Assembly (NCBI GenBank): GCA_002862985.1
Contig: PKCY01000174.1
Location: 1 to 38,129, forward strand
Length of the DNA: 38,129 nucleotides
DNA from: Haliea sp.
Lineage (GTDB): Bacteria; Pseudomonadota; Gammaproteobacteria; Pseudomonadales; Halieaceae
Reading direction: 5' to 3'
In this document: piece by piece, positions 1,643-26,868 of the stretch
Layout of the letters: each line of letters starts with the position of its first letter
Numbering within the stretch: position 1 is the first letter of the stretch
The notes under the pieces: model-generated
Databases searched by the model: none
The model's input: only the letters and a program-made list of their open reading frames with translations
What the model was told of the DNA's origin: nothing
Position numbers and translations under genes: made by a program

Positions 1643-4594
1643 TTACAACTCCTCCACACTCAAGTTCAGCTTGTCCCGCAGTGAAGCAGTAGCCTCCAAT
1701 TGCACTGCATTGGTAACAAGGGCTGTACTGGCGAGGTGGGGCTTAAGGTAGGTTTCGGTCACGCGCCGCAAATCATCCAGAGTGACTGCCAGTATTTGTT
1801 GGCGAAACTGCGCGCGCGTTTCATGCGTTCGGCCAAAGATACTGTTGTGGAAGTGTTGTTTGGCTTCGCCAGCAGGCGAGCTGGGTTTATCCATGCTACC
1901 AATGACGCCGAGAATGGCTTCTTCCAGTGCACGATGGTCGTGCTGCGTATCCAGCACCCACGAAACAGCCGTATCGAAATCATCAAGTGTTTCTGCGAGG
2001 CGCGGGTCGCGATAGGAATAAAAACGGAATGCCGCTATACCGGAATCCTGCGAGGCGCCACCACCGTAAGCACCGCCCTGTTCGCGGATGGCGCGGTGCA
2101 GATAGCCGTTGCGCAGGAAGCCACCGAGAACCGTTAATGCAGCGGAATCCGCATGCTGCACGGCAACGGTCGGATAAGCCCGCGCGCAGAAGTTTACCTG
2201 GGTATTGGTAAGCCACATTTGGGTGCGTTGTTCACGTATGGGCGGCAAGCTGAATGATGGTTTGTTGGCGTTAGCAGCGGCTTGTGACCAGAGCGAGCTG
2301 GCGTGCTCTGCGAGCAGCGCAAGCTTGTCTTTCTCGGCAATTGCAAGAAATTGCATAGGGGTGCTGAGAAGCTCGCCATGTAATGCGCCGAGTTGCTCTG
2401 CAAACGTGTTTAGCGCCTCTTCATCAGCGAGGCTATCGTCCAGGGTTCGCAGTTGCCGGATACCCGCAAGCCCGGATTGCTCGTGCTGAAGCTTTGCCAG
2501 TGGACTCATGCCGGCACAGGCGGCCGCCATTGCCAGGCTGTGTCCATTGCCGGTAACGGATTGATCGCGACGGGCACGCATCTGGCTCACCAGTTCGCGA
2601 ATTCTACCGGTTTCGTTAAAGCGAACGTTGTGCAAGGTATCGAACATGAGCTGAGTTTGCGCTGGCGCATTGCGTAGCAACGCTTTGGAGGAAAGGGTGA
2701 AATTGGCGCTTATCGACTGTTCGTTGTCGACTGTCCCACGCATCGCCGTGAATGCCGAAATCGAACCGATGGTTGCTGCTTGTCGCTGTTGCACCTCCAG
2801 GTACGATTCATCACCCAGTCCGACTTCGGTAAGGATGCTGGAATATAGCGGTAGCAGACCAAGTGCTGAATCACCCAGGGGAGGCAGAGGGGCTATGGCC
2901 TGTTGATAGACGAGACCGTTAGTGCCCTGGCTATACGTGGTAAACGGAACCCCGTGTGGGCGGATTTTCTCGAACGTGAGATCAGGGAGTGCGGCAGGGA
3001 CATCACTCAGTTCTACTCGGGGAAGCACGCTGTCGTCATCCACCTGCTCCTGGCGTGCACTCAGGTCGGCAGCCAGCTTGATAGTCGCTTTTCGCTGAGA
3101 TTCACTCATAGCCGCTTTGATGTCGGCCAGACGGGCGGTTTCAAGGGCCAGGTTTTTGGCGGATAACTTAGTGTCCGGGGTCATAACCAGAGTCACACGG
3201 TGCTCATTCTCCAGCAGCAACTGTCGAGCCAGTTGGCGGATGTAATCAGGGTTCTGGATTTGCTCCTGCAGCCTGGCAATAACGGGGTCCAGGTTTAGGA
3301 CAGCAATAGGGTCACTGTAGTGTGTGGCGCAGCCGAGCGCTTGCAGGATGAGCTGCAGGCCGTAGGGGTAGCTGTCACCACTGATCTCTCTTTGGTGTAA
3401 CTCCAATTGATGCAAGACCGCTTCCAGGCGTGCCTGTGGCACTCCCTCCTGGGACACCTGTTCGATCACACCTAACACCAGGTCTTCAAGTGCCTCGGCA
3501 TGTTCCGCTTCGCTACCTTCAATGCCGCAACAGAACACCAGTTCGCGCATGGAATCTTCAAGCCCACAAAGAGGAGAGGGCGCTCGTCCGAGTTCGGTCG
3601 TCTCCAGTGCAAGTTGCAGGGGCGAAGCGCTGTTGTCCAGCAGCACGCTGGCCAATAGTTGGGCCTCCAGAAGCTGCTTAAGGTCGGCGCTCTCACCCAG
3701 CATCCATCCCATCACCAGATGTGTTTTGTTATCGGTGGTGTCCTTGTCATCAAAGACGTAGCGGTCCTGTACACGCAGTGATTGTGACAGCCGTTTCTCT
3801 GGTTGCACCTGAATTTTTTCAGTCATTTTATCGAATTGGGACAAGGCGTTTTCTTCGAAAACACGCTGGTGCTCCCCAGCCTCAATATTGCCGAACGTCA
3901 TAAAGATGGCATTGCTGGGGTGATAGTGGCTGCGGTAAAAGGCCTGCAATTCTTCGTAGCTGAGATCGGGAATGTGCTGCGGGTCACCACCGCTGTTGTA
4001 GTGGTAGGTACTGGTAGGGAATAAATGCTTACACAGCGCACTCCACAAGGTACTGCTGATGGAGCTCATTGCCCCCTTCATCTCATTGAAAACAACACCT
4101 TTAAAGACCAGTTCACTATCTGGATTGCCAGGTTCTGCAAATTCAACCCGATGCCCTTCCTGAGCGAAATCCAGAGGGTCCAGGCGTGAGAAAAATACGG
4201 CATCAAGGTAGACCCGCAGCAGGTTGTCAAAATCCTTGCGGTTCTGACTGGCGAAGGGGTAGGCGGTCCAGTCGGAGCTGGTAAAGGCATTCATGAAGGT
4301 ATTCAGAGAGCGGCGCAGCATCATAAAAAATGGATCGCGCACCGGGAAGCGCTCGCTGCCACACAGCGCAGTGTGTTCCAGGATGTGGGCGACGCCGGTA
4401 GAGTCATGGGGCACAGTGCGCAGGGCCACCAGAAAGACATTCTCGGTATTTTCCGAGGCTAGATGGTAGTGCACAGCTCCGGTCTTTTTGTGCTTATACT
4501 GCTCCACTCGAATATTCAGGGATTCGATTTTCTCCTGGCGAATTGCCGCAAACGAAGGGTGAGGGGTGGAAAGGGCAGTACCGCTGTTGCTCAT
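1643..4594 (-). CDS. M16C metalloprotease (PreP/Cym1-like insulinase family)
   Basis: This 983-aa zinc protease has the inverted HxxEH motif HILEH at residues 70-74. The third ligand is probably E171 in FNEMKGAMSS. Length and order match the M16C presequence-protease group: two fused M16 halves, an active N-terminal half and a degraded C-terminal half with YGGGASQDSG. Family members clamp and degrade unfolded peptides. There is no signal peptide, so it is probably cytoplasmic. It is preceded by its own gap after the glutaminyl cyclotransferase gene (4637) on the same strand and may be co-transcribed with it. The call is secure at family level, but the substrate is unknown. Confidence 0.9.
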   Translation of the reverse strand: MSNSGTALSTPHPSFAAIRQEKIESLNIRVEQYKHKKTGAVHYHLASENTENVFLVALRTVPHDSTGVAHILEHTALCGSERFPVRDPFFMMLRRSLNTFMNAFTSSDWTAYPFASQNRKDFDNLLRVYLDAVFFSRLDPLDFAQEGHRVEFAEPGNPDSELVFKGVVFNEMKGAMSSISSTLWSALCKHLFPTSTYHYNSGGDPQHIPDLSYEELQAFYRSHYHPSNAIFMTFGNIEAGEHQRVFEENALSQFDKMTEKIQVQPEKRLSQSLRVQDRYVFDDKDTTDNKTHLVMGWMLGESADLKQLLEAQLLASVLLDNSASPLQLALETTELGRAPSPLCGLEDSMRELVFCCGIEGSEAEHAEALEDLVLGVIEQVSQEGVPQARLEAVLHQLELHQREISGDSYPYGLQLILQALGCATHYSDPIAVLNLDPVIARLQEQIQNPDYIRQLARQLLLENEHRVTLVMTPDTKLSAKNLALETARLADIKAAMSESQRKATIKLAADLSARQEQVDDDSVLPRVELSDVPAALPDLTFEKIRPHGVPFTTYSQGTNGLVYQQAIAPLPPLGDSALGLLPLYSSILTEVGLGDESYLEVQQRQAATIGSISAFTAMRGTVDNEQSISANFTLSSKALLRNAPAQTQLMFDTLHNVRFNETGRIRELVSQMRARRDQSVTGNGHSLAMAAACAGMSPLAKLQHEQSGLAGIRQLRTLDDSLADEEALNTFAEQLGALHGELLSTPMQFLAIAEKDKLALLAEHASSLWSQAAANANKPSFSLPPIREQRTQMWLTNTQVNFCARAYPTVAVQHADSAALTVLGGFLRNGYLHRAIREQGGAYGGGASQDSGIAAFRFYSYRDPRLAETLDDFDTAVSWVLDTQHDHRALEEAILGVIGSMDKPSSPAGEAKQHFHNSIFGRTHETRAQFRQQILAVTLDDLRRVTETYLKPHLASTALVTNAVQLEATASLRDKLNLSVEEL

Positions 4595-20911: not shown

Positions 20912-22810
20912 ATGAAGAGTAGTGCGAAGCGGTATAGGTTAATTTTACTAGCAGGATTGATCGCAAATTCAACACCGCCGGCTTTTGCCTCGGAGCAACT
21001 GGAATCCGTAATGGTTACCGGCTCCTATACGCCTGTGCAGTCCGGAAGCCTTAGCAGTTCGCATACAGTGCTAACCGCCGATTTTTTTCGAGCAACGAAT
21101 ATGCGAAGCGTCGCCGACGCCTTGCGCACAGTCCCCGGCTTGCTGATTGAGGCGTCGGGTGGTCAAGGCGGGCTAACGGCTGTTTCCATCCGGGGTGGAG
21201 AGGCAAACTTTACTCTGGTACTAGTAGATGGTGTAGAGGTTAATGATCCCACCAATACGCGCGGCGGTAGTTTCGATTTCTCCAACCTGGATATCGCCAG
21301 TGTTGAGCGCATAGAAATTGTGCGTGGGCCTGAGTCTGCCGTCTACGGTTCAGATGCGATGGCAGGGGTGATAAACGTGATTACCAGAGGTCCTACAGAA
21401 CAACACCAGCAACGAGTGAAGGCCGAGTGGGGAGATGACGATTTCGAGCGCTATTCCATAGGCGCAACGGGTACTCTGGGAGAGTTTGGGTACTCAGCAC
21501 AGTTTGCCCAGTGGGACAGCGGCGAGCCGACTGAGGGCAGTGAGCGCGAGAACGACGAGGCAAATCTTGGGCTGCATTGGTCGCCTTCAAACGCACATGA
21601 TCTGCAGTTAAATTATCGTTACCTTGATGGAAATAGTAAAACCTTTCCGGAACAGAGTGGTGGTGCGAAATTTGCAGTCTCACGAAAGCTGGATCACACC
21701 GATTACACAGACGAAACTTTCGGTGCCAGTTGGGGTTGGAGAATATTGCCAGACTGGGACAGTGAGTTATCTGCCAGCCGGTTCGACCACGACGAGGACT
21801 ACCGGTCGCCGGGTATTTCCCCGTTTTCTGAAGTTCCCCCGCAACAGTCGCAGACCCATTTTACGCGTGATCAATATCGATGGGTGAACAGCATTACTGT
21901 CTTGGAGGCGGTTCATGTCGCAACCGGGGCTGACTATCGGAACGAAGAAGGCGACAGCGTAGGTGAGCTTGATTTTGGATTTGCCACTTTGCCCACTGAT
22001 TTCTCTCTCGATCGCAGCTCCAGCGGTGTATTTCTAGACATCCATTCAAGAGTCTTGCCAGCGCTACTGTTACAAGCCATCGTTAGATATGATGACCCTG
22101 ATGATTTTTCATCGCAGACGACGTTGAAACTGGGGGGCGAGTACAACCTGACATCGCTGATGTCTGTATCGGCTAATTGGGGTGAGGCCTTTAAATTACC
22201 AAGTTTTTTCGCCCTTGGCCATGGGTTGGTGGGCAATCCAGATTTGGTTCCGGAGACCGCTGAGAGTTGGGATGTGGGCGTGCGCTTTTCTTCTGCTGAT
22301 AAATTTTCACTAGAGACCGCGTATTTCTCAAATGTCTATAAAGATCTCATTGACTTCGATTCCGAATTGTTTATCAACGTAAATCGTCGACAGGTAGACA
22401 CAAGCGGGGTAGAGCTTCAGCTCAATTGGATGCCAACGACCAGCCTTAATATTCTTGGCCATGCGACGTATACCGCCATTGATGTCAAGGATGAGGGCGC
22501 ACCATTGCTGGGTCGACCCGACTGGACGGCGGGTGCAACGGCACTGTGGCAGATTTCAGCCAACTGGCATGCTGCATTGGATTATCAATGGACTGGCGAA
22601 CAGTATGCTTCTTCGCGATACACCGGTAGCACCGTAATCGAAACTCTGGATGATTTTAATCAGTTGGATATGAGCCTGGCCTGGCAGATACTTGATTGGG
22701 CTGCGGTGGAAGTGGCTTTTGATAACGTGTTGGATGAGGATTTTCAAACCGCTGTTGGGTTTCCCAGTCCCGGGCGCAGCGTTCGTTTAGCGCTGACACT
22801 AAGCAATTAA
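20912..22810 (+). CDS. TonB-dependent outer-membrane receptor, BtuB-like
   Basis: This is an intact 632-aa receptor with a signal peptide (to about residue 26, PAFAS), a TonB-box-like LESVMVTG, and a plug (about 40-155: DALRTVPGLLIEASGGQ, VSIRGGEANFTLVLVDGV, RIEIVRGPESAVYGSDAMAG). A 22-strand barrel follows, ending in the outer-membrane signature (SPGRSVRLALTLSN). The plug resembles BtuB, the vitamin B12 receptor, but plug similarity is a poor guide to substrate. I see no cobalamin riboswitch or transport genes next to it. Catecholate siderophores or other ligands are equally possible. A sugar-type aldolase gene follows 110 bp later on the same strand. Confidence 0.88.
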   Translation: MKSSAKRYRLILLAGLIANSTPPAFASEQLESVMVTGSYTPVQSGSLSSSHTVLTADFFRATNMRSVADALRTVPGLLIEASGGQGGLTAVSIRGGEANFTLVLVDGVEVNDPTNTRGGSFDFSNLDIASVERIEIVRGPESAVYGSDAMAGVINVITRGPTEQHQQRVKAEWGDDDFERYSIGATGTLGEFGYSAQFAQWDSGEPTEGSERENDEANLGLHWSPSNAHDLQLNYRYLDGNSKTFPEQSGGAKFAVSRKLDHTDYTDETFGASWGWRILPDWDSELSASRFDHDEDYRSPGISPFSEVPPQQSQTHFTRDQYRWVNSITVLEAVHVATGADYRNEEGDSVGELDFGFATLPTDFSLDRSSSGVFLDIHSRVLPALLLQAIVRYDDPDDFSSQTTLKLGGEYNLTSLMSVSANWGEAFKLPSFFALGHGLVGNPDLVPETAESWDVGVRFSSADKFSLETAYFSNVYKDLIDFDSELFINVNRRQVDTSGVELQLNWMPTTSLNILGHATYTAIDVKDEGAPLLGRPDWTAGATALWQISANWHAALDYQWTGEQYASSRYTGSTVIETLDDFNQLDMSLAWQILDWAAVEVAFDNVLDEDFQTAVGFPSPGRSVRLALTLSN

Positions 22811-23588: not shown

Positions 23589-24173
23589 CTATGCAGACTG
23601 CGCCTGATACGTTTTGCGCCAGCTTATATACCCCCAGATTGAAAGCAGACTATAAAATCCAATTAATACTGCGTAAATATCAAGATCTCGGTCGTGGTAG
23701 AGCCACACCGATGCGACATTGATAATCAGCCAGTAGACCCATGCCTCCAGTACTTTGGTGATTTCTAGGTAGGTGCCTAGAAAGCTGAATACAGTGGTGA
23801 AGGCATCGAAAAGTGGCCGTTGTGCATCAGTGTAATGTTGTACTGTAAATCCAAGCGCGGCTGCCAGAACACATGCAATGATGATGGCTATTAGGTGCCG
23901 GTGAGCCTGCCATCTAATGACTGGGTTCGAGTCAGCCTCCAGTTTCCGGTGCCAGTAAATCCAACCCCACACGCCCATTCCCGCATAAAACAGATACAGT
24001 AAAGACTCCGAGTACAGTCGCGCGTCGATAAAAAGGTAGATACTTAACAGGCTACCAACAATGCCAAATGCCCAGCATGCTATTTTTTCCTTTATCAGTA
24101 GCACGATATAGACCAGGCTTGCGCCGGTAGCAAAGATTTCCAGTAGCAAAGCAGTGGTTAGAGTCCCGCTCAC
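23589..24173 (-). CDS. pnuT: PnuC-family transporter, probably thiamine (PnuT)
   Basis: This 194-aa inner-membrane protein has about seven helices of the PnuC fold (LLLEIFATGASLVYIVLLIK, CWAFGIVGSLLSIYLFIDARL, GMGVWGWIYWHRK, WVYWLIINVASVWLYHDRDL). PnuC proper carries nicotinamide riboside; the PnuT branch carries thiamine. The TPP riboswitch upstream of the operon (25110-25212) makes thiamine the better call. It follows a decayed TonB receptor by 28 bp. The protein looks intact, so inner-membrane uptake may still work without its own outer-membrane partner. Confidence 0.8.
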   Translation of the reverse strand: MSGTLTTALLLEIFATGASLVYIVLLIKEKIACWAFGIVGSLLSIYLFIDARLYSESLLYLFYAGMGVWGWIYWHRKLEADSNPVIRWQAHRHLIAIIIACVLAAALGFTVQHYTDAQRPLFDAFTTVFSFLGTYLEITKVLEAWVYWLIINVASVWLYHDRDLDIYAVLIGFYSLLSIWGYISWRKTYQAQSA

Positions 24174-24201: not shown

Positions 24202-25059
24202 TCAAACCATTAGCACCTCAGAAGGAATACAGTAGTTCAACACCATAAATGAGAGGCTCACCGGGCTGCAGGTAAGTCTGGTTCTGGAAAGCGCAAAATC
24301 GTCGCGGGATTCATTTCCAAAATACAGTTCGTGCACGGCGTAGTCCTCGTCGCCAAGATTGCGTCCCCACAAGGTGACGGACTGCCATCGAAGGCTGGCA
24401 TTGATGAGCTTACAGCTGTCCAGCCCACCGTCGTGATAGTAACCGAAGAAGGTGTCGTCCTGACCTTCGATCTTCAGGCGCCCACTTGACTGGCTACTGA
24501 GCGGACAACTGACCAGTTCTAGATTGTAGCTGTCATAGTTGCCGCCGCCGGAGAGCTCTGCCTCGAACTCATCGGTGGGCGCATTGGAGTGCATGAAGAC
24601 CATGCCCGCGTGGCCATTAGCGCCAAAACGCGTGCCCTGTGGCCCACGCAACACTTCGACTTGGGCGATGTCGAACAATATGCCGGCACTGGCGGTATCG
24701 CCCAATTCCATGTCGTCCAGCATGATGCCTACTGCGGGGTAATACTTGGGGTCATAGAGCTGTTCCAACTCGCCCACGCCGCAGATCTGCACAAAGCGAC
24801 CCCGGGAGGCGCCTGCAGTCCCGGTCACATTGGGAGCGGCGCTGAGGATGTCCTGTAGGTGCTGAGCGGCGCGTTCGGTAATCGTGTTTTGGGTTATGGT
24901 ACTAACGCTACCCACTGTCTGCATAAGCGTAGTATCACGAAAATTGGCAGTGACAATAATTTCTTTGAGCGCTTCCCCAGCCTGGGCAAATGCAAGTGGG
25001 GCACCGAAAACGCTCGCGAAGGCCAACAGAGTTGTGGGGAGAAAAGGTCTTGGTGACAT
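24202..25059 (-). pseudogene. Decayed TonB-dependent receptor in a thiamine operon
   Basis: The ORF encodes only 285 aa. It keeps the signal peptide, the plug (VGSVSTITQNTITERAAQ to VEVLRGPQGTRFGANG) and the start of the barrel (LSGGGNYDSYNLELV), then jumps to the last barrel strands (LINASLRWQS, VTLWGRNLGDEDYAV). Roughly 350-400 residues are missing. Near the end the frame is wrong: in another frame, after a shift at 24289-24292, the sequence reads FQNQTYLQPGEPLIYGVELL and ends YSF with TGA at 24218. That is the normal C-terminus of such receptors. A large in-frame deletion plus a frameshift make it a pseudogene. A functional short plug-only product is unlikely. Confidence 0.85.
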
Positions 25060-25109
25060 GGTGAGCCTCTAATACTAATAAGAGACCCGGAGTACGACGC
25101 GAGAGCAGT

Positions 25110-25212
25110 ATGACTGCACCTATTCCTACGCCGGTATTAACCGGATCAGGTTCAAGGGTTTGCCTGTCACCAGAACAGACATCTCAGGCCACCGGGCCAC
25201 CCCTTAGGATTA
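25110..25212 (-). ncRNA. TPP (thiamine pyrophosphate) riboswitch
   Basis: On the minus strand the core reads AAGGGGTGGCCCGG, then GGCCTGAGATG, then CCCTTGAACCTGATCCGG followed by TTAATACCGGCGTAGGAA. CTGAGA, the ACCTGATC-GG-TTAATACCGGCG-AGG stretch and the flanking P1 pair (TCCTA/TAGGA) are the Thi-box hallmarks. It sits 50 bp before the receptor remnant and should switch off that gene and pnuT when TPP is plentiful. A TATACT -10 candidate lies at 25221-25226 just upstream. Confidence 0.95.
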
Positions 25213-25339
25213 GAGCGAGGAGTATACGGGGTAGGGTTTGCGATTCATAGGGTGTTGCCATCACGGTAGCTGCTGAGTTTAAAATTTGATGGGCTGACGG
25301 CACGGGAGCCAATCAGTGGGATTTAGCCGCTCCACACCG

Positions 25340-25345
25340 TATAAT
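25340..25345 (+). promoter_or_regulatory. Candidate -10 box of gltX
   Basis: A perfect TATAAT lies 33 bp before the gltX start and would give a leader of about 26 nt. No good -35 box stands at the usual distance. Confidence 0.4.
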
Positions 25346-25377
25346 TGCCAGCATTGTTTTTATTGCACCGGATACCT

Positions 25378-26868
25378 ATGACCGTACGCACCCGTGTTGC
25401 GCCATCTCCGACTGGCGATCCCCACGTGGGCACTGCCTACATCGCCCTGTTCAATTACTGTTTTGCGCGCGCCCACGGGGGCCAGTTTTTGTTGCGCATC
25501 GAAGATACCGACCAGGCGCGCAGCACCCCTGAATCCGAGCAGGCGATAGTCGACTCCTTGCGCTGGCTGGGCCTGGAGTGGGATGAGGGTCCGGATGTTG
25601 GTGGTGAGCACGGGCCCTATCGACAGAGTGAGCGTATGGACCTATACGCGGAGTATGCGCAGCAACTCGTCCAAGAGGGTAAGGCCTTTATTTGCTACCG
25701 CACTTCGCAGGAGTTGAATGACTTGCGCGAGTCACGGCGCGCAGCGGGGAACAGTACTGCACTCAAGCCATCGGATCTTAAGTTAGACCCGGTAGAGGTT
25801 GAAAAACGCCGCGAGGCTGGTGATGCGTATGTGATTCGGATGATGGTGCCGGAGGAGGAGGGCACCTGTACCATTGCGGATATGTTGCGTGGCACCATTG
25901 AGTTGGACTGGAGTCTGGTGGACGCGCAGATATTATTGAAATCTGACGGCATGCCCACCTATCATTTGGCCAATGTGGTGGACGATCACCTGATGGGGAT
26001 TTCTCACGTCCTGCGCGGTGAAGAGTGGATCAACTCTGCTCCAAAGCACAAATTATTGTACGAGTACTTCGGTTGGGAAATGCCGCAGTTGTGCCATTTG
26101 CCCCTGCTGCGCAACCCGGACAAGTCTAAACTTAGCAAGCGCAAGAACCCCACCAGTATTTTATATTACCAGCGCATGGGCTATCTTCCTGAAGCATTAC
26201 TTAACTATCTGGGTCGCATGGGTTGGTCTATGCCAGATGAACGTGAGAAATTTTCGCTTGTGGATATGTTGGAGCAGTTCGATATTCAGCGCGTCTCTCT
26301 CGGGGGGCCTATTTTCGACGTGGAGAAGCTTAGCTGGCTCAACGGCATGTGGATTCGCGAGAATCTCGACGAAGCTCAGTTGGCACAGCGGCTGCTGGAG
26401 TGGGCTTACAACCGGGAAAATCTCATGAAGGTTCTGCCCCATGCGCAGAAGCGCATGGAAAAGCTCAGTGATTTTGCCCCCCTGGCGAGCTTTTTGGTAG
26501 CGGGAACTCTGCCGCTGGATGAATCCAGTTTCGCCGCGGTGAAAGGTGAGCGTGAGGATGTTGTGAGGGGCCTGCAGTTTGCCTTGTGGCGCCTCGAAGG
26601 CCAGCAACAATGGAATCGCGACGCAATTTGGAGCGATCTTAAGGGGCTGGCTGATACCTGTGGCGTCAAGGTTAAGGACTTTCTGGCGCCACTGTTCATT
26701 GCGATCGCCGGTACCAGCGCCTCATTTTCGGTGGTGGATTCAATGGAGCTGTTGGGGTCGGATATGAGCCGCGCGCGAATTCGCCACGCGATTGAGGTAT
26801 TGGGTGGCGTGTCCAAGAAGTCGCTCAAGAAGATTGAGAAAGAATACCAGCAATTGAGTCAGGACTAG
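25378..26868 (+). CDS. gltX: Glutamyl-tRNA synthetase
   Basis: This 496-aa class I aminoacyl-tRNA synthetase charges tRNA-Glu. The HIGH-type motif is in [15 protein letters not shown] (residues 7-21). The KMSKS-type motif is [17 protein letters not shown] and the anticodon-binding C-terminal half are present. The start at 25378 is chosen because [12 protein letters not shown] is the canonical N-terminus; the track adds 11 residues. It is followed after 3 nt by a GST-like gene, so the two share an operon. Confidence 0.96.

Follow-up and report, generated by a model that had tools for sequence, protein, structure and literature searches.

The window analysed here is the whole stretch of 38,129 nucleotides of the Haliea sp. 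contig PKCY01000174.1. On its minus strand, a TPP riboswitch is followed by an open reading frame of 285 codons and then by the gene pnuT. The divergent neighbour gltX (25345..26868, plus strand) marks, by synteny, the orthologous locus in relatives. The succession of riboswitch, receptor and pnuT on one strand is the layout of a thiamine operon, which has been kept; the receptor in it is broken. A full-length BtuB-like TonB-dependent receptor of 632 aa is also encoded near the thiamine locus, at 20912-22810. In the window, no cobalamin riboswitch scored higher than the gathering threshold.

The TPP riboswitch aptamer (RF00059) lies at 25106..25214 on the minus strand. With cmscan, the match from 25214 to 25106 reached 73.0 bits (E 1.1e-12), where the gathering score is 54.3, and covered model positions 1-105, and the curated cut-off was passed across the full aptamer. 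The original prediction of a riboswitch that is intact by motif is therefore upheld by the covariance model. The receptor-linked TPP riboswitches of relatives (n=20) scored 66.7-78 bits. Between the aptamer and the open reading frame, a hairpin of 7 pairs (GGGUCUC/GAGGCUC, 25063..25088, minus strand) is predicted in which the receptor ORF has its ribosome-binding site. When 16 sequences, among them those of the window, G115 and G131, were aligned, 99.1% of the cells were paired. The variation was one-sided and showed no compensatory pair, and the hairpin appears conserved, without proof by covariation. It is the likely expression platform and would act by translation control, which is the mode of the known Gram-negative TPP switches. 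A terminator scan gave no signal above chance. A predicted leader fold that would act as an anti-sequestering switch was dropped because its pairing partner is not conserved in the relatives.

The receptor ORF occupies 24202..25059 on the minus strand, the strand of all its parts described below. Pfam recognised only the plug (PF07715, 52.6 bits; aa 45-152, 24604..24927) and gave no match to the beta-barrel domain PF00593 in the 285-aa ORF. The translation retains a signal-peptide-like N terminus and a TonB box, EIIVTA, at aa 33-38. The nearest homologues run to 717-777 aa without a stop, and two stretches of them align with the ORF: the initial ~190 residues and ~65 residues further on. An in-frame gap of about 430 barrel residues separates the two, at aa ~190 to ~192 of the ORF, with the deletion junction (aa ~190-195, SQ/SGRL) at 24475..24492. 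The residues 192 to 257 behind it (24289..24486) are in frame and match the C-terminal region of the relatives. Three more small gaps of 1, 1 and 4 aa were seen in the alignment, all in frame. The last barrel strand, which ends with QNETYLQRGEPRTYGVELRYAF in the relatives, was found by three-frame translation within 24218..24298 as QNQTYLQPGEPLIYGVELLYSF, out of frame with the ORF, which continues past it to 24202. The predicted loss of most of the barrel and the predicted frameshift near the receptor end were thus both borne out by comparison with intact relatives. With ~430 residues absent and the last strand out of frame, no complete beta-barrel is encoded, and 24202-25059 is a pseudogene that yields no working TonB-dependent receptor. 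Direct repeats encoding SGRL were considered as the origin of the deletion, which was not established: the best relatives matched at 13 of 18 bases at the junction and other relatives at 12-13 of 18, at unrelated offsets.

To follow the decay of the part that is left, we took the 113 columns of the kept region that are invariant in 13 intact relatives and used leave-one-out controls. In the window 19 of the 113 residues were altered, compared with 0-6 in the controls, and the decay is therefore independent of any one assembly join. The changes include invariant residues of the plug, where the IRG motif has lost its arginine and reads ICG. In a tree from 256 shared columns, the window receptor had the longest end branch, 0.53 compared with 0.045-0.31. 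A branch codon model gave an omega of 0.107 for the receptor against 0.068, a difference that was not significant (LRT 1.67), and the synonymous sites were saturated. The omega value therefore neither proves nor excludes relaxed selection and cannot date the lesion, and the count of invariant residues is the better evidence of decay. Judged from these sequence comparisons, the remnant looks like a recent pseudogene.

Could the organism have a complete receptor, with the deletion and frameshift arising as errors of a fragmented metagenome assembly? The assembly consists of 329 contigs (89.7% complete, 0.89% contamination), and frameshifts of a single base are frequent errors. However, invariant residues are altered on both sides of the junction, and the missing middle of the barrel is nowhere in the assembly, where the best match is a paralogue with 33% identity. 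In the relatives, the sequences at either end of the missing segment agree at no more than 13 of 18 bases, which is too little for a k-mer misjoin, and the same locus is still more eroded in other genomes of the genus. A misjoin as the full explanation is unlikely on the first three of these grounds, and we regard an artefact as scarcely credible.

The pnuT gene (23589..24173, minus strand) starts with GTG 28 nt past the end of the remnant ORF and encodes a putative inner-membrane thiamine transporter of the PnuC family with 194 aa. PF04973 (NMN_transporter) matched it with 156.6 bits over model positions 2-175 of 175, in agreement with the expectation of a whole gene, and TIGR01528 (PnuC) scored above its cut-off. 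The omega of the pnuT branch was 0.055, which corresponds to strong constraint by purifying selection. The linkage of pnuT to riboswitch-led receptors points to thiamine as the substrate, rather than nicotinamide riboside.

The arrangement was then surveyed in 140 genomes of the family, of which 127 had matches to the TPP riboswitch. A receptor of the kind found in the window, and on contig C58 of the same assembly, came next after 120 of 133 riboswitch sites (119 genomes), with a median gap of 105 bp. The next gene after the receptor was pnuT in 106 of 124 cases, and nearly all receptors stood behind TPP riboswitches. These counts make the order riboswitch, receptor, pnuT the rule in the family. 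A riboswitch leading to pnuT without a full receptor occurred at only four of the 133 sites, all in the genus of the window. The receptors form two clades, that of the window (genera g1, g10, g11, g18 and g23, with a close pnuT) and a larger one to which the C58 receptor belongs. Broken receptors were also seen elsewhere: in the single-contig genome G054, a receptor led by a TPP riboswitch is interrupted by a change of frame near residue 514 (L193, G054:C1:3566000-3570500), and one behind a TPP riboswitch in G110 lies in two frames, split around residues 175-185 (L195, G110:C4:73500-77500).

Within the genus, the locus was found in several states. Eight genomes (G116, G119, G120, G124-G128) have an intact receptor beside pnuT, and the window genome (G000) has the gutted one between riboswitch and pnuT. 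In G115, G121 and G131 the receptor is gone and pnuT follows the riboswitch within 266-376 bp. The distance is 375-376 bp in G115 and G121. In G115 the receptor ORF is down to about 20 codons, the riboswitch before pnuT is still above the cut-off, and the gap holds two short receptor-like stretches with weak matches (E 0.006 and 1.6). A similar C-terminal reading in the gap of G121 was judged by eye; the riboswitch there is degraded (37 bits). In G131 (L098, about 3741-4113) an intact riboswitch and hairpin are followed by AUG-UGA, an ORF of one codon, and pnuT begins 266 bp past the aptamer. In G118 and G122, the interval from gltX to pnuT contains no riboswitch and no receptor, and pnuT gave no match in G130. 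In G117, thiC lies behind a TPP riboswitch, a pnuT scrap contains a stop and no receptor is present (L102, L103); this prototroph seems to have shed its uptake operon.

The shortened ORF of the window might still be a kept product, either a periplasmic protein of plug and TonB box or a leader that, through its translation, couples riboswitch control to pnuT. Its 285 codons are open, four of its five indels are multiples of three, the N-terminal signal and the TonB box are retained, the stop lies close to pnuT, and omega = 1 was rejected for the whole receptor branch. That branch, however, takes in the time before the lesion. The excess of changes at invariant columns corresponds to about 0.2 neutral changes per codon, for which 1.4 stop codons are predicted. 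None was observed, which is not significant (P = 0.24), and we rejected the missing stops as a sign of function; the open frame alone is no evidence for it. Plug residues that are otherwise conserved, among them the arginine of IRG, have been lost, and the riboswitch stands above the cut-off before pnuT in G131 and G115, where the ORF has shrunk to the one and about 20 codons given above. A kept product is therefore highly improbable.

A second TPP riboswitch was found in the window assembly at the end of contig C151, immediately in front of an intact receptor of 721 aa on contig C58. The last 123 bases of C151 are identical to the first 123 of C58 in reverse complement, within the riboswitch region, and the unit covers 15440-17892 of L130 (C58) and 8849-9057 of L131 (C151). 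Compared with G115, the unit has 90-92% DNA identity over ~2.5 kb. The matched stretch comprises the riboswitch, the receptor and about 200 bp beyond; it stops on both sides, where other genes flank it. The gltX genes of the two genomes share 73% DNA and 78% protein identity. Since 90-92% DNA identity is found with unrelated flanks, whereas gltX has 73%, the unit looks horizontally acquired: the similarity is confined to the unit, exceeds that of gltX and ends at different flanks. In the receptor tree, G000, G115 and G129 stand together (SH-aLRT 100). By gltX, G115 groups instead with G121, a genome that lacks a C58-type receptor. No mobile element, integrase or repeats were found at the edges examined on C58 and C151. 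From these comparisons, the riboswitch and receptor unit has probably been laterally transferred. Most related receptors are followed by pnuT; this unit is not.

C58 and C151 were assigned to the genome by binning and composition, and they could be misbinned from another organism. Their tetranucleotide correlation with the window was 0.82-0.83, compared with 0.87 between the window halves, which is not decisive. G115 (8 contigs, 99% complete) has the unit and the eroded locus in one well-assembled genome.

We looked for thiamine synthesis in the same genomes. No match to thiC was found in the window genome (89.7% complete assembly), and among the 18 genomes of the genus only G117 has the gene. 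As thiC is missing in the other 17, thiamine or its precursors would have to come from outside there, completeness permitting, and the gene content suggests that the window bacterium is probably unable to make vitamin B1. Thiamine pyrophosphokinase (PF04263) gave no match in any of the 18 genomes, so that this family assigns no gene to the conversion of imported thiamine into TPP. Elsewhere in the family, thiC stands behind a TPP riboswitch in G025, G036, G135 and G054 (L197), the last being the single-contig genome with the split receptor. Riboswitches linked to thiC occurred only in genomes with thiC, namely these four and G117. They share the aptamer family with the window riboswitch; the window genome differs in having no thiC match. 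In a coastal survey, B1 auxotrophs made up to 78% of the bacterioplankton taxa (PMC10881298).

Taken together, we consider it probable that the receptor of a riboswitch-receptor-pnuT operon has recently become a pseudogene, that a second riboswitch-led receptor, probably transferred, serves the outer membrane, and that the old riboswitch was kept for pnuT. Thiamine would pass the outer membrane by way of the C58-type receptor and then the inner membrane through the product of the window pnuT, each of the two being governed by its own TPP riboswitch. At the window locus, TPP would mask the ribosome site near the start of the mRNA and control translation of the first ORF, and the effect would reach pnuT by coupling or by Rho-dependent polarity. 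We propose that the receptor was lost because the second one with its own riboswitch serves the outer membrane, and that the window riboswitch was kept because pnuT is still under its control. We infer that the second receptor carries thiamine and so permitted the loss, that TPP still represses the window pnuT, and the order of these events. In the best explanation the operon is remodelled and not abandoned: its outer-membrane half is replaced, and its inner-membrane half keeps the riboswitch. The original prediction offered another route for thiamine or a decaying operon. The other route is supported, with the C58/C151 receptor as its candidate, and decay applies to the receptor of the window. 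It does not extend to the whole operon, where the aptamer, the ribosome-site hairpin and pnuT are kept and three relatives that have lost nearly all of the receptor still show a match to the TPP riboswitch before pnuT, degraded in G121.

It is also conceivable, but improbable, that the receptor was simply lost, by chance or because thiamine is plentiful or comes in through porins, the second receptor being irrelevant. No second receptor was detected in G131, G121 and G118, all of which lack a receptor at the gltX/pnuT locus, and replacement is therefore not the sole way of loss. In a biosynthesis mutant of B. thetaiotaomicron, deletion of OMthi raised the thiamine EC50 from 2.8 to 15.8 nM and did not abolish growth (PMC5613172), so that other entry is possible, on which these three genomes may rely. 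On the other hand, G000, G115 and G122 have no working receptor beside gltX/pnuT and all have an intact receptor behind a TPP riboswitch, which in G122 is of the C58 type and lies elsewhere in the genome. Mutual exclusion of the old and the new receptor in the genus was not significant (0/4 versus 8/14, P = 0.069).

A wider form of the replacement reading, which we put forward tentatively and hold to be unlikely, is that riboswitch and receptor are a self-contained unit that moves from one bacterium to another and leaves the inner-membrane partner behind. The resident receptor would then become dispensable and erode, and its riboswitch would be re-used for pnuT alone, with the shrinking ORF as a temporary leader that hands control on to pnuT.

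The genus provides a series at one locus, from an intact receptor to a gutted one, to scraps and to none; in several lineages of the series, the riboswitch has outlasted its first gene. How B1-auxotrophic bacteria exchange parts of their uptake systems is little documented. Two questions are made testable here: whether a riboswitch retains control of a downstream gene once its original target has vanished, and whether a vitamin receptor can be swapped as a regulated cassette while the inner-membrane partner remains.

The BtuB homologues named omr are regulated by TPP riboswitches (Kazanov et al. 2007, PMC2211319, citing Rodionov et al. 2002). As in the window locus, a BtuB-like receptor stands there behind a THI element. 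In its passages on omr, that account presents it as a predicted regulated gene and does not describe replacement or erosion. A literature search joining riboswitch, horizontal transfer, TonB-dependent receptor, pseudogene and vitamin returned no match in the collection of papers covered, which does not in itself show novelty. In Bacteroidetes, a TPP riboswitch, a TonB-dependent receptor and PnuT are likewise found in one operon. These OMthi/pnuT/tnr3 operons can split and lose genes; on splitting, they usually retain the riboswitch or come to have two copies of it (Costliow and Degnan 2017, PMC5613172). They belong to another phylum, and the genus of the window has no PF04263 match. Here, unlike in those operons, riboswitch and pnuT enclose a receptor remnant, and the presumed replacement receptor has its own riboswitch and no pnuT. 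Split receptor/pnuT operons are thus already known from Bacteroidetes; what is new is the graded erosion and the mobile unit of riboswitch and receptor.
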